Positions 731-4,967 of a stretch of DNA of 64,000 nt are shown here, in pieces (position 1 is the stretch's first letter; every line of letters begins with the position of its first letter). Source of the stretch: Paeniglutamicibacter psychrophenolicus (GTDB lineage: Bacteria > Actinomycetota > Actinomycetes > Actinomycetales > Micrococcaceae); contig NZ_JAUSSH010000012.1 of assembly GCF_030812255.1 (NCBI RefSeq), positions 1 to 64,000 of the forward strand, given 5' to 3'. The notes under the pieces are model-generated. The model saw only the letters and a list, made by a program, of their open reading frames with translations, made no database searches and had not been told where the DNA came from. Both the position numbers and the translations under genes were made by a program.

Positions 731-761
731 TTGGCCGTTCGAAGCGGTGGTGGCCTAGGAT
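731..761 (+). promoter_or_regulatory. candidate promoter for the mgtE leader
   Basis: TTGGCC at 731-736 and TAGGAT at 756-761 form a plausible -35/-10 pair with a 19 bp spacer, slightly long. The -10 fits the actinobacterial TANNNT pattern. It would place the transcript start near 768, about 430 bases before mgtE and about 90 before the leader ORF. Inference from sequence only. Confidence 0.4.
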
Positions 762-855
762 GGGAAGGACGCCCCGACCCGGTGCGGCTTGCCCGGAAAA
801 CGGCGGCCGTCCAGGGAATTTCGGGCCCCGAGGACGGATGGAGGTGACCGCACGC

Positions 856-936
856 ATGGATGACGGACCTAGTCGATCTATCACGCCGCGCGAGCATCAC
901 CTGGGTGCTCGGGAAGCCCTGGCCCTCCAGCACTGA
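856..936 (+). CDS. 26-residue leader peptide upstream of mgtE
   Basis: A short ORF, ATG 856 to TGA 934-936, with a near-perfect ribosome binding site, GGAGGTGA at 840-847, eight bases before the start. It is the best Shine-Dalgarno sequence in this region and better than the one of mgtE. The peptide opens MDDGPSRSITPREHH and continues LGAREALALQH. Acidic residues and a proline right after the start recall the intrinsic ribosome-destabilising N-termini of enterobacterial Mg2+ transporter leader peptides (MgtL), which sense low Mg2+. That parallel is inference; I do not recognise this peptide. A hairpin inside the ORF pairs GAGCA (892-896) with TGCTC (906-910). No other gene explains the 520 bp gap. 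Confidence 0.55.
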   Translation: MDDGPSRSITPREHHLGAREALALQH

Positions 937-970
937 TCCTCCCTTCCTCCGCCGGATGCCCATGCACCGG

Positions 971-1191
971 CCCTCCGGGGGAATGGATCCCGCACCCTTG
1001 CGCGCACCGCGCCGAGGCTGCAGATCCCGGTGAACGGATCACGGCCGGAGGCCACAGCGGGCCGTCCCGGGGATTCCGGCGCCTGCTGCGCGGTTGTGTT
1101 TTTGCGCAACACCCAGCCCACACCACCCATTCCTGGCACACGTCGCCAAGCACGCGCCTGCGCGATGCATGCGTGTGTTTTCACCGGAGGG
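971..1191 (+). promoter_or_regulatory. possible long-range pairing that hides the mgtE ribosome binding site
   Basis: CCCTCCGG at 971-978 is exactly complementary to CCGGAGGG at 1184-1191, which contains the mgtE Shine-Dalgarno sequence. It starts 35 bases after the stop codon of the leader peptide. A similar CCGGAGG at about 1046-1052 could compete. This would allow ribosome position on the leader ORF to control mgtE translation, but eight base pairs in GC-rich DNA can arise by chance. I saw no match to the M-box Mg2+ riboswitch consensus. Confidence 0.3.
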
Positions 1192-1200
1192 AACCGGATC

Positions 1201-2559
1201 ATGATCAAGACGCCCACCAGCTCGTTTGATTTCAGCGCGGAACAACTGGCCAAGGCCCTGGCCGCCAACGACATTGCCGCGACTTCAAGGGTGTTCCACC
1301 CCCTGGGGACCGCCGAGACGCTGGAACAACTTGAACGCCTGAACACCTTTGACCGGGCGCTGGCCTACCGCACGCTGCCCAAGGACCGGGCCATGGAGGT
1401 CTTCGAGCGACTTGACGCCTCCTTGCAGGCGGACCTGGTCGCGGGCCTGCAGGAGGCCGACGTTGCCGAGGTCTTTGCGGCGATGAGCCCCGATGACCGG
1501 GTGGCGCTGCTCGACGAGCTGCCGGCCGCGGTGGCGAACCGGTTGATCCTGGGACTGACCGAGAAGGAACGCGCGCTGACCAGCACCGTGCTGGGCTACC
1601 CGCAGGGCGCGGTCGGGCGCTACATGAGCCCGGAGTTCGTGATCACCCACCCGGAGATGAGTGCGGGGGAGACCCTGGGGCGGGTGCGCGCCCAGCTCGA
1701 CGACGCCGAGTCCGTCTACACCATCCTCGTCACGGACACGGGCCGGCACCTGGTGGGCGTGGTGTCGTTGCGCGATGTGCTGCGCGCCGAACCGGCCGAG
1801 CGCGTGCAGGACATCATGAAGAAGCCGATCAGCGTGGGTGCGACGCTCGACGCGGAGGAAGCCGCCCGCTATTGCGCCGACGCCAAGATCCTGGTGCTGC
1901 CGATCGTTGACGCCGAGGAACGCCTCGTGGGGATCCTGACGGTCGATGACGCGCTGCGGATCCTGGAGGATGCCGAGTCCGAGGACGCGGCGCGGTCCGG
2001 TGGCACCGAGCCGCTGCGCCGCCCCTACCTGGCAACCCCGGTGCGCTCCATCGTGCGGGCCCGGGTGGTGTGGCTGCTGGTGCTGGCGCTCGGCGCCACC
2101 CTGACGGTCCAGGTCATCGGCGCGTTCGAGGCGACCCTCGAGGCGCAGGTGGTGCTCTCGCTGTTCATCCCGCTGCTCATCGGCACCGGCGGAAACACCG
2201 GCAACCAGGCGGCCACCACCATCACCCGCGCCCTGGCGCTGGGGGACGTGCGCCCGCGCGACGTGTTCAAGGTGCTTGTGCGCGAGGTGCGGGTCGGCGC
2301 GCTGCTGGGCCTGCTGCTCGGGTCCCTGGGCTTCGCCATCGCTGCGCTGGCCTTCGAGGTGCCCATCGGGCTGGTCATCGGGCTCACGCTGCTGGGGGTG
2401 TGCACCATGGCCGCGAGCATCGGCGGGCTGATGCCGTTGCTGGGCAAGGCGGTGCGCGCGGACCCGGCGGTGTTCTCCAACCCGTTCATCTCCACCTTCG
2501 TGGATGCGGCCGGGCTGATCATCTACTTCCTGATCGCCACCAGCGTGCTGGGGCTCTAG
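1201..2559 (+). CDS. mgtE: magnesium transporter MgtE
   Basis: MgtE-type Mg2+ channel of the cytoplasmic membrane, 452 residues, the usual length. Residues 1-135 form the helical MgtE N domain. Residues 140-260 hold two CBS domains, which in the family bind Mg2+ and close the channel when the ion is plentiful. Residues 285-450 give about five membrane helices, and GTGGNTGNQA (328-337) is the family signature of the first pore helices. The start at 1201 follows GGAGGG at 1186-1191. An in-frame ATG at 1030 would add 57 residues unlike MgtE and is rejected. The gene follows a 26-residue leader ORF and seems to be a single-gene unit. Confidence 0.95.
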   Translation: MIKTPTSSFDFSAEQLAKALAANDIAATSRVFHPLGTAETLEQLERLNTFDRALAYRTLPKDRAMEVFERLDASLQADLVAGLQEADVAEVFAAMSPDDRVALLDELPAAVANRLILGLTEKERALTSTVLGYPQGAVGRYMSPEFVITHPEMSAGETLGRVRAQLDDAESVYTILVTDTGRHLVGVVSLRDVLRAEPAERVQDIMKKPISVGATLDAEEAARYCADAKILVLPIVDAEERLVGILTVDDALRILEDAESEDAARSGGTEPLRRPYLATPVRSIVRARVVWLLVLALGATLTVQVIGAFEATLEAQVVLSLFIPLLIGTGGNTGNQAATTITRALALGDVRPRDVFKVLVREVRVGALLGLLLGSLGFAIAALAFEVPIGLVIGLTLLGVCTMAASIGGLMPLLGKAVRADPAVFSNPFISTFVDAAGLIIYFLIATSVLGL

Positions 2560-2756: not shown

Positions 2757-3902
2757 ATGGCATCACGCGCAGGTTCCACAGGAATCGACGCCTCGCTCTA
2801 CCGTCGAGAGGGCCAATGGTGTACCGCCCTCGTAGACGTTTCGCTTGGAACAACCGCCGCGCAGGAAGCGGTTGACGCACTGCCCGAGGTCGTGGGCAAG
2901 CTGCTCGCCTCGCAGCAGGCCTCGGAGGCCGACATTGCCGCCATGGCCGAAGCGCTGCTGCCGGCGCAGGGCCATGCATCCCCGGTGGCCCGCTTCGTCG
3001 CGGTGAACAACGGAGAGGTGGTTCTCGACGAGCTCATTGACGGACTGAAGGTCGAGGCCGCGGACGTCGACTGCGGCCCGTTCCCCAACCTGGTCGCCCT
3101 GGCCCGCGCCCGCGGCGGGCAATTCCCCTACCTGGTGGCCGAGGCCAGCAAGGACGGCGGCGAGGTGCGGCTCTACCATTCCTCGGTCCAAGGCGTCGGC
3201 GAGTCCCGCGGCGTCACCGGGGACCCCGAGGAGGCACACCACGCCCGGAAGGTTCCGGGCCGCTACGACGAACCCAAGAACCGCTCCAACACCGAGGAGA
3301 TCTGGCGGCGCAACGCGGACGAGCTGGCCAAGCAGATCGACGAGCTGGCACGCGAGAACTACGTGAAGCTGATCGTGCTGGCCGGGGACATCAAGGCCCG
3401 CGAGCTGGTGGCCGGCAAGCTCGGTTCGGCGCACAAGCCGATCACCAGCATCCTCGAGCAGCACACGCGCACCGGTGGCGCGGACCAGGCGGCCTTCGCC
3501 GCCGCCGTGCAGGGACAGGTCGACGAGGTCCTGGGCCGGGACGTGGAGGAACTGTCCAAGCGCGTGGCCAATCGCACCGGAAACGACCGACCGGATTTGG
3601 CCCTGGGCTTCGACGAGGTCGTGGCCGCGCTGCAGCAGGCCCAGGCCGACACGGTGCTGGTGGGGCAGTACCAGGACGATGAGACGCTCATGGCCCTGGA
3701 TGCCGACCCGTGGCTGTGCGGCGAGGACTCCGAGGAACATTCCGAATCGGTCATCGGGTCCTGGCCGGCCCCCGAGGTGCTCCTGCGTGCCACGGCGTTG
3801 ACCGATGCCACCATCCGCTATGTGCCCGAGGGCGTGCTGCCCGAGGGCGTGGGCATTGCCGCGCTGCTGCGCTGGCCCAACACCGCCGAGCCGGCGAGCT
3901 GA
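2757..3902 (+). CDS. Rv2629/Balon-like release-factor homologue, candidate ribosome hibernation factor
   Basis: A 381-residue soluble protein that I match to the actinobacterial baeRF/Rv2629 family of archaeo-eukaryotic eRF1/Pelota relatives. Work on Psychrobacter Balon and its mycobacterial homologue showed that such proteins occupy the A site of resting ribosomes. Supporting features are the charged linker around KNRSNTEEIWRRNADELAKQ, followed by a Rossmann-like strand and turn (KLIVLAGDIKARELV), and the C-terminal DTVLVGQYQDDETLMA and ATIRYVPEGVLPEGVGIAALLRW, as in the eRF1 C domain. No GGQ peptide-release motif is visible, as expected for a non-hydrolysing homologue. The ATG at 2757 follows GGGAAGGAG (2741-2749); an upstream in-frame start at 2700 lacks one. 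The gene is monocistronic and ends in a strong terminator. Confidence 0.7.
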   Translation: MASRAGSTGIDASLYRREGQWCTALVDVSLGTTAAQEAVDALPEVVGKLLASQQASEADIAAMAEALLPAQGHASPVARFVAVNNGEVVLDELIDGLKVEAADVDCGPFPNLVALARARGGQFPYLVAEASKDGGEVRLYHSSVQGVGESRGVTGDPEEAHHARKVPGRYDEPKNRSNTEEIWRRNADELAKQIDELARENYVKLIVLAGDIKARELVAGKLGSAHKPITSILEQHTRTGGADQAAFAAAVQGQVDEVLGRDVEELSKRVANRTGNDRPDLALGFDEVVAALQQAQADTVLVGQYQDDETLMALDADPWLCGEDSEEHSESVIGSWPAPEVLLRATALTDATIRYVPEGVLPEGVGIAALLRWPNTAEPAS

Positions 3903-3989: not shown

Positions 3990-4967
3990 CTACTTGGCCA
4001 GTGCCTCCAGGGCCCGGATGTTCGCGTCCATCCAGGAGACATAGTCGGTGCTCGGCGGCAGCGTCTCGGTGAAGTCGATGACCTCGACGTTGGCGGCGTC
4101 GGCCAGGGCGCGGATGCGTTCGGTCTGCGGGCTTTGGGTCTGGGTGTTGTAGGCCAGCACGTCGATGGCGCCGTTGTCGAACAACCTGCCCATCTCGTTG
4201 AAGGCCTGCGGTGAGACCTCGCTGCCGCCCTCGATGGATTCGCTCAGGCCCTCGGGGGTGGCGTCCTCCATCCCCAGGTCCTCAAGCAGGTGGAAGGGCA
4301 CCGGTTCGGTCATGGCGAAGTGCTTGGCTTCCAGCGAGCCGCGCAGGGTTGCGACCTTGGCTTCCAGTCCCTGGAGCTCGGTGGCCAGTTCCGCCGCGTT
4401 CGCGGTGAAGGTCGAGGCCTTCGCCGGGTCGAGGGCGGACAGCCGTGCGGCGATCTCGTCGGAGAGCAGGCGCATGGATTCGAGGTCGTACCAGACGTGC
4501 TCGTTGAAGGCGGCGTGGTCGTGGCCGGCATGGTCCTCGGCGGTTTCGCCCGCGTGGTCAGCGTGTTCCTCGTCGGTTTCGCCCTCATCGGCCACCGGGG
4601 AGGTGTCCACCGCGCGGATGACGGTGGTGGCGGGAAGGTCCAGGTCCTTGGCCAGCACATCCATGAAGGCGTCGTATCCGCCGCCGTTGGCGACCACCAG
4701 CCGGGCCTTGGACATCGCGAGCTTGTCACGCGAGGTCGCCTCGTAGGAGTGCGGGTCCTGGGACACCGAGTCGATGAGGGCGGTGGCCTGCACCGCGTCG
4801 CCGCCGACCTTTTCCACGAGGTTGGCGTATACCGTGGTGCTGGTGACCACCTGGAGCTGCTCGCTGCCGGGGGCCGGCTCGTCGCCGGCGGCGTTGCCGC
4901 CACAGGCGGCAAGTGCGAGGGTTCCGGCAAGGGCCAGGGGAAGCAGGGTGCGGGCGCGGCGATTCAT
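3990..4967 (-). CDS. zinc (metal) ABC transporter substrate-binding lipoprotein, ZnuA/cluster 9 family
   Basis: A 325-residue exported lipoprotein that binds Zn2+ (possibly Mn2+) and would deliver it to an ABC permease. The lipobox LALAAC puts the lipidated cysteine at residue 22. The first metal ligand is in DPHSYE (71-76). A His/Asp/Glu-rich loop with seven histidines lies at 135-151, and EHVWYD (156-161) gives the second ligand, as in ZnuA. The C-terminal half has the family helix ending FTETLPPSTDYVSWMDANI. No znuB or znuC is nearby, so this is an orphan component serving a permease elsewhere. A Zur-like box sits upstream (5033-5047). The YibE/F gene ends 79 bp upstream on the same strand. 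Confidence 0.9.
   Translation of the reverse strand: MNRRARTLLPLALAGTLALAACGGNAAGDEPAPGSEQLQVVTSTTVYANLVEKVGGDAVQATALIDSVSQDPHSYEATSRDKLAMSKARLVVANGGGYDAFMDVLAKDLDLPATTVIRAVDTSPVADEGETDEEHADHAGETAEDHAGHDHAAFNEHVWYDLESMRLLSDEIAARLSALDPAKASTFTANAAELATELQGLEAKVATLRGSLEAKHFAMTEPVPFHLLEDLGMEDATPEGLSESIEGGSEVSPQAFNEMGRLFDNGAIDVLAYNTQTQSPQTERIRALADAANVEVIDFTETLPPSTDYVSWMDANIRALEALAK

Follow-up and report, generated by a model that had tools for sequence, protein, structure and literature searches.

A conserved short leader ORF upstream of mgtE in Micrococcaceae as a candidate ribosome-based Mg2+ sensor

Does the short ORF located upstream of the Mg2+ channel gene mgtE in Paeniglutamicibacter psychrophenolicus take part in the control of this gene, and if so by which means? 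The window analysed here (64,000 nt) corresponds to the first 64 kb of one contig of a 4.57 Mb genome, and its MgtE has its closest named relatives in Arthrobacter sp. C2 and AQ5-05 (98%), followed by Paeniglutamicibacter. A previous sequence-only reading of this DNA had proposed that the ORF encodes an acidic, proline-containing leader peptide acting on mgtE in the manner of enterobacterial MgtL. The features discussed below are listed in Table 1. The ORF encodes the 26 residues that had been claimed and its Shine-Dalgarno (SD) sequence is indeed better than that of mgtE, with a match of 8 nt (GGAGGTGA) versus 5 nt (GGAGG). A promoter had also been placed ca. 95 bp upstream; this is plausible since a TAGGAT box occurs there and, among the 26 relatives listed (of 33), 15 have CTAGGAT 60-140 nt 5' of the leader, but a scan for E. 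coli-type sigma-70 promoters found none in the region before the leader. The hairpin described inside the ORF exists, although it was recognised by eye and in close relatives only, and the reported absence of an M-box agrees with a comparison of the leader region to Rfam in which no family, the M-box covariance model RF00380 included, reached its cut-off. Downstream of mgtE, the window carries a gene for a baeRF_family2 protein with a release-factor-like domain (2757-3902) and, on the strand opposite to the latter, one for a ZnuA-like protein (3990-4967).

Table 1. Features of the leader region and mgtE in the window
Feature	Position	Strand	Basis or remark
Candidate -10 box, TAGGAT	756..761	+	CTAGGAT recurrence in relatives
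SD of the leader ORF, GGAGGTGA	840..847	+	Pattern matches, relatives
Leader ORF, ATG to TGA, 26 aa, MDDGPSRSITPREHHLGAREALALQH	856..936	+
Conserved core, leader codons 1-8	856..879	+	Ends in rare codons AGT CGA TCT (871-879)
Putative helix P1, 5' arm (codons 9-14)	880..896	+	Duplex, species-swap and pair-count tests
Local hairpin within the leader ORF, CGAGCA...TGCTCG	891..911	+	By eye; overlaps P1 arm; close relatives only
Putative helix P1, 3' arm, conserved GCGCGGTTG element	1085..1100	+	27 distinct sequences
Small hairpin P2	1093..1112	+	z -2.4 in window
C-rich, G-poor stretch (29 C, 11 G), possible Rho-loading region	1107..1166	+	Inference
Hairpin P3, just 5' of the mgtE SD	1135..1177	+	Folding z-scores
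Mini-hairpin CCGG-AGGGAA-CCGG around the mgtE SD	1184..1197	+	Alignment
mgtE, Mg2+ channel	1201..2559	+	Pfam MgtE, MgtE_N, CBS

In close relatives the leader takes the form M[DE]DGxSRS and is preceded by a strong SD. Homologs of mgtE were detected in 43 of 100 genomes of the family, and in the best 30 loci, the window's own among them, a leader beginning with M/V/L-[DE]-[DE] and having a strong SD is found in 20, with none recognised in the other 10. Similarly, it occurs in 21 of 30 mgtE loci from named genomes (L033-L052 and L054), the nine loci without it (L053, L055-L062) being more distant and including two, L057 and L060, that have no usable upstream sequence. The conservation of a short ORF before mgtE that alignment of upstream regions had been expected to reveal is observed in both sets. 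One of the named records, L049, is titled Sporosarcina beigongshangi and has an Arthrobacter-like mgtE (83%) together with the leader, so that the assembly is probably misnamed or contaminated. A strict pattern combining SD and leader gave exactly one match per genome in 40 of 295 family genomes and none with the reversed control; all 40 matches, which comprise 30 loci, eight more and those of G024 (L008) and G052 (L007), lie 5' of an mgtE match. With a start-codon pattern devoid of any SD requirement, 13 leaders were retrieved in the first 30 loci and all 13 have GAGGTG just upstream. A chance ORF is ruled out by this SD at each of the 13 matches and by the single matches in 40 of 295 genomes against none reversed. 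The acidic residues at positions 2-3 in close relatives were found without selecting for acids.

Elsewhere, degenerate leaders are encountered (MSSDSHSRR, MSSDSCSHH, VNSDSSRHR, MDTGSSSRH, MEPGSSRDHH and MSDSHSRSSYATEKL). Among 108 further mgtE loci from the family, order and class (L063-L087 and L118-L200), some such leader is present in 22 (L064, L068, L070, L075, L076, L077, L080, L127, L128, L130, L131, L136, L139, L141, L144, L168, L169, L172, L186, L189, L190 and L197) and none was recognised in 86, counts that are not blind for leaders outside the MDDG and EPPS types because these were chosen partly by their SD and AGT/TCT content. For 16 of the 200 loci (15 with mgtE, and L002), local re-anchoring on mgtE failed; those 15 were rescanned together with three others. 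Overall the distribution of the leader is patchy, and a kinship of the MDDG, DSxS and EPPS branches would have a short motif and its position as sole basis.

Constraint within the leader was assessed in 40 distinct sequences chosen as [ATG]TG-GAN-GAN-G. Codon 4 is GGA in 37 of them, codon 6 AGT in 37, codon 7 CGA in 39 and codon 8 TCT in 34, when the same codons represent 12% (GGA), 4.4% (AGT), 3.3% (CGA) and 2.4% (TCT) of synonymous usage in the mgtE genes of close relatives. Codon 5 is unconstrained (Pro 16, His 13, Asn 6, Ser 3, Gln 1, Lys 1), the tail of the peptide varies among relatives and no run of codons for one amino acid is seen. Position 6 is Ser encoded by TCT in L015 and L013, and Asp in L014. 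Since the codons are near-invariant and Ser6 is kept through TCT, both residue and codon appear constrained up to codon 8. The MgtL-like proposal is thus retained in part: the ORF is conserved, well initiated, tied to Mg2+ transporters and acidic at its N-terminus, but Pro5 is found in only 16 of the 40 leaders and, for this reason, a proline mechanism is not general in the window's clade. Judging from the comparison, the strongest constraints are instead the rare codons 6-8 and an RNA helix situated directly after them, neither of which was part of the earlier proposal.

This predicted long-range helix, P1, would be formed by codons 9-13, which are complementary to a conserved element starting 99-141 nt 5' of the mgtE start. 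In 33 sequences, the duplex energy of species-matched arms was reached by none of 20,000 species permutations, with 24 single sequences better than their own median swap and nine not, and the same test gave no signal for five control region pairs (8,035, 18,515, 2,252, 4,241 and 15,437 of 20,000). The last of these figures corresponds to [-175,-85] x [-85,+5], in which no partner was found by which the 3' arm, once free, would be connected with the start of mgtE; a pairing of the uORF start with the mgtE start was also considered and rejected, as it gave no signal in the permutation test. In 27 distinct sequences, standard pairs occupy 348 of 432 pair cells, compared with 117-204 cells when the partner is slid and a mean of 337.6 (best 346 in 5,000) when arms are swapped; five of the 32 distinct sequences (L010, L011, L088, L091, L095) had been dropped for arm indels or divergence. 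When sites were chosen automatically, the 3' arm of the alignment was missed in L007, L040 and L115. P1 being invariant over much of its length, swapped arms pair nearly as well as matched ones, which leaves a modest covarying part; in addition, the swap and pair statistics ignore shared ancestry. Covariation is illustrated by pair 10.1 (G-C in 14 sequences, A-T in 6, unpaired in 7) and by pair 13.2 (A-T in 13, G-C in 4, T-A in 1, C-G in 1, unpaired in 8). In L091 and L095 the frame past codon 8 looks shifted and long P1 duplexes nevertheless persist, so that coding as the sole cause of the conserved TAPRE segment was rejected in favour of RNA pairing, which fits better. Altogether, a helix P1 with compensatory changes is supported by the comparison. 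By eye, the post-core segment of L013, L015 and L016 may form a tight local hairpin (CCCGCG...CGCGGG), which perhaps replaces P1.

Other RNA elements are predicted between the leader and mgtE, where alignment of the whole upstream region was uninformative in the spacer. P2 is weak across relatives (mean z -1.2, 17 of 33 below -1) and, as it overlaps the 3' arm, would exclude part of P1. P3 reaches a mean z of -2.1, with 28 of 33 sequences below -1 using single-base shuffles, and displays no conserved U-tract in relatives. An attenuator of the intrinsic terminator type was discarded, with one scan match in the window region for 0.6 expected by chance and a U-run that is lost in relatives. For the median of 43 leaders, 7.5% of random genome stretches equal the spacer in C-richness, no more than a hint of Rho. 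At the mgtE SD, the four pairs of the mini-hairpin are retained in 30-31 of 32 sequences and are mostly invariant; for the mgtE-proximal 85 nt, RNAalifold predicted nothing beyond this hairpin and a portion of P3. The contrast between a strong leader SD and a weaker mgtE SD enclosed in a small hairpin would suit a leader that helps or hinders mgtE translation constitutively, by re-initiation or as a decoy, with no sensing. Such a role is very improbable, given that the start of the leader lies about 110 to 410 nt from mgtE, mostly far for re-initiation, and that the rare-codon core and the co-varying helix would then be superfluous.

A second branch of leaders, MRSEPPS and kin, was found 5' of mgtE in L128, L139, L186, L190 and L197. 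The MRSEPPS pattern has one match each in 16 of 394 genomes of the class and none in the reversed control, with 5 matches before mgtE and 11 before corA, the identity of CorA being indicated by PF01544 (E 6.5e-60, L205 copy). MgtE and CorA are unrelated Mg2+ transporters that have here one leader type in common. In the best 30 corA loci, taken from 159 genomes with a match, an EPPS-type leader occurs in 19 and none was recognised in 11; in the window's genome, the one examined of two corA matches has no leader. The broader [E/Q]PPS pattern matches in 26 of 306 genomes that overlap the MRSEPPS set (21 before corA, 4 before mgtE and 1, L271, before neither), for three matches in two genomes with the reversed control; the L271 match uses other Pro codons and looks like chance. 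Complete leaders of eight residues, MSQPPSTN and MGQPPSTP, are part of this branch. Pro-Pro is conserved in this branch and, of the 46 Pro codons in 23 distinct EPPS leaders, 33 are CCT, 13 CCC and none CCG, when Pro usage for comparison is 51% CCC, 38% CCG and 8.5% CCT; the L278 leader has one CCG. The codon following Pro-Pro is AGT in 22 of the 23, a codon that accounts for 2.9% of Ser usage. In this branch (L201-L216 and L256-L281 except L271), the SD and start codon lie in a predicted hairpin that is closed by the Glu-Pro-Pro codons and whose inner stem varies (22 distinct sequences); the pairing of CCTCC with the leader's own SD could, alone, explain the choice of Pro codons. The post-core arm also pairs downstream, 5 of 20,000 swaps reaching the matched arms in 24 loci, although more weakly (mean z against shuffled arms of -0.9), and the layout resembles that of the window's clade, i.e. 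a short core followed by a pairing arm, before corA as before mgtE.

These features raise the question of whether the conserved entity might be an RNA element, riboswitch-like or bound by a protein, whose reading frame would be mostly a by-product of conserved nucleotides. Such an element would account for codons 4 and 6-8 being conserved at the nucleotide level, beyond the residues, for codons 9-13 through pairing, and for the CCTCC of the EPPS Pro codons that pairs with the SD. It is nonetheless quite unlikely: an SD stands at the right spacing in 13 of 13 SD-free pattern matches, Ser6 survives a change from AGT to TCT in L015 and L013, the start codon varies between ATG, GTG and TTG with the frame kept, the 8-codon ORFs retain both start and stop, and the window leader has no Rfam match.

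A connection with Mg2+ is suggested by mgtE loci having MRxRS-type leaders, three of which (L127, L131 and L189) out of five possess an M-box Mg2+ riboswitch 5' of the leader, the latter starting 98 nt after it in L127 and 92 nt in L131. The remaining two, L130 and L136, have no M-box, and none was found in 20 scanned mgtE loci in which no convincing leader had been recognised. L131 and L189 also have GTGCGGTGTGAC in common 3' of the leader, and GCGGTGTGAC is found near EPPS mgtE leaders as well. In six of eight loci scanned (L045, L048, L010, L042, L088 and L095), a gene for tRNA-Ser(GCU), the reader of AGU/AGC, is located just 5' of the leader; its proximity to leaders with a near-invariant AGU codon 6 may be a coincidence. 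Together with Ser AGT being the feature most widely common to the branches, this tRNA could alternatively point to a ribosome-controlled attenuator that reports how well rare codons for Ser and Arg (or Pro) are read, and hence a general stress on translation, the supply of tRNA or the presence of an antibiotic rather than Mg2+. We consider this unlikely, for a Mg2+ transporter gene follows all 16 MRSEPPS matches and 25 of the 26 [E/Q]PPS matches, and an M-box precedes three leaders; moreover, no link of mgtE or corA to serine is known to us.

Four comparative findings, namely leader conservation, constrained codons, helix P1 and the association with Mg2+ transporters, fit a model of ribosome-controlled attenuation comparable to that of MgtL, CorL and MgtQ, in which low Mg2+ would turn mgtE on by keeping P1 from forming; we regard this as the probable explanation. 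The mgtE mRNA would start ca. 90 nt 5' of the leader ORF, and ribosomes would load well on the leader and read codons 1-8. At the rare codons 6-8, and with a short nascent chain that is acidic and rich in Ser/Arg, the ribosome may slow down or dissociate, an effect that would be more pronounced at low cytosolic Mg2+. While stalled over codons 6-8, it would, given the size of its footprint, shield codons 9-13 and hence the 5' arm of P1, so that P1 could not form. The 3' arm near mgtE would then remain free, possibly within the local hairpin P2, and mgtE would be expressed. With enough Mg2+, the ribosome would pass, P1 would form and mgtE would be silenced, the most likely route being Rho-dependent termination within the C-rich stretch and the alternative a reduced access to the mgtE start.

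More tentatively, and with a likelihood that we place somewhat short of even, these leaders may represent a widespread actinobacterial ribosome-based Mg2+ sensor, in which a leader of 6-8 codons precedes two unrelated transporters, sometimes behind an M-box, and in which sensing would consist of decoding plus a long-range helix. The sensor would be made up of an acidic residue, an optional Pro-Pro, Ser-AGU and Arg/His, i.e. of codons that are slow by wobble or m1G37-dependent and whose reading would fall as Mg2+ falls, the long-range RNA helix beginning right after them. If true, ribosome-based Mg2+ sensing would not be an enterobacterial peculiarity and high-GC Gram-positives would have their own leader system for MgtE and CorA. 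A natural leader of eight codons would also be small enough for point changes to tell whether Mg2+ is sensed via codons, nascent peptide or RNA.

Among the matches listed in the open-licence PMC literature, no paper was recognised as describing these leaders, the nearest being that on the mgtE uORF of Mycobacterium abscessus. In the passages cited, the latter is a ribosome-protected uORF, described as a VcgB homologue, that is associated with an M-box (PMC4974804). The same combination of M-box and uORF is seen in L127, L131 and L189, whereas the window has no M-box, and the uORFs are likened here by description and not by sequence. The Thioalkalivibrio mgtE motif is likewise an RNA element before mgtE, a structured riboswitch candidate that the cited passages report from Thioalkalivibrio only and for which, unlike here, they describe no uORF (PMC11109978). 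The actinobacterial attenuators leuL, trpL and ilvL have control codons in a short ORF beside pairing arms, but in the passages cited they are rich in one regulatory amino acid and target genes of amino-acid metabolism (PMC8079986); the words corA, mgtE and magnesium are absent from the main text of that source. An amino-acid attenuator was rejected for the window because the downstream gene is a Mg2+ channel and no codon run for one amino acid exists.

Further parallels are enterobacterial. MgtL, the mgtA leader of Salmonella and E. coli, is depicted in the passages cited as a short uORF whose peptide contains acidic residues and Pro, with mutually exclusive 5' RNA structures (PMC11552253, PMC6335274), its CC[C/U] Pro codons depending on the Mg2+-requiring enzyme TrmD (PMC6335274). 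What our leaders have in common with it is a short ORF, equipped with an SD of its own, ahead of a gene for a Mg2+ transporter, and the CC[C/U] Pro codons that prevail in the EPPS branch (46 of 46, the single CCG of L278 coming in addition). MgtL differs in that the transporter is MgtA there and MgtE or CorA here, and in that Pro need not be present in the window's clade, where the invariant part is the rare AGT/CGA/TCT; the resemblance is one of features, not of alignment. MgtQ, located 5' of Salmonella mgtB, has eight residues, acidic at positions 2 and 5, within competing stem-loops according to the passages cited (PMC8092293), and may be compared with the 8-residue MSQPPSTN and with the acidic MDDG. 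On the same account it is intra-operon, between mgtC and mgtB, whereas the leader here occupies a 5' region with a long-range helix. Finally, the enterobacterial corA uORF, CorL, involves two exclusive structures and Rho in the cited description (PMC11552253) and, like the EPPS leaders, precedes corA; by features rather than by alignment, the actinobacterial case is distinguished from it by one leader type, EPPS, that serves both corA and mgtE.
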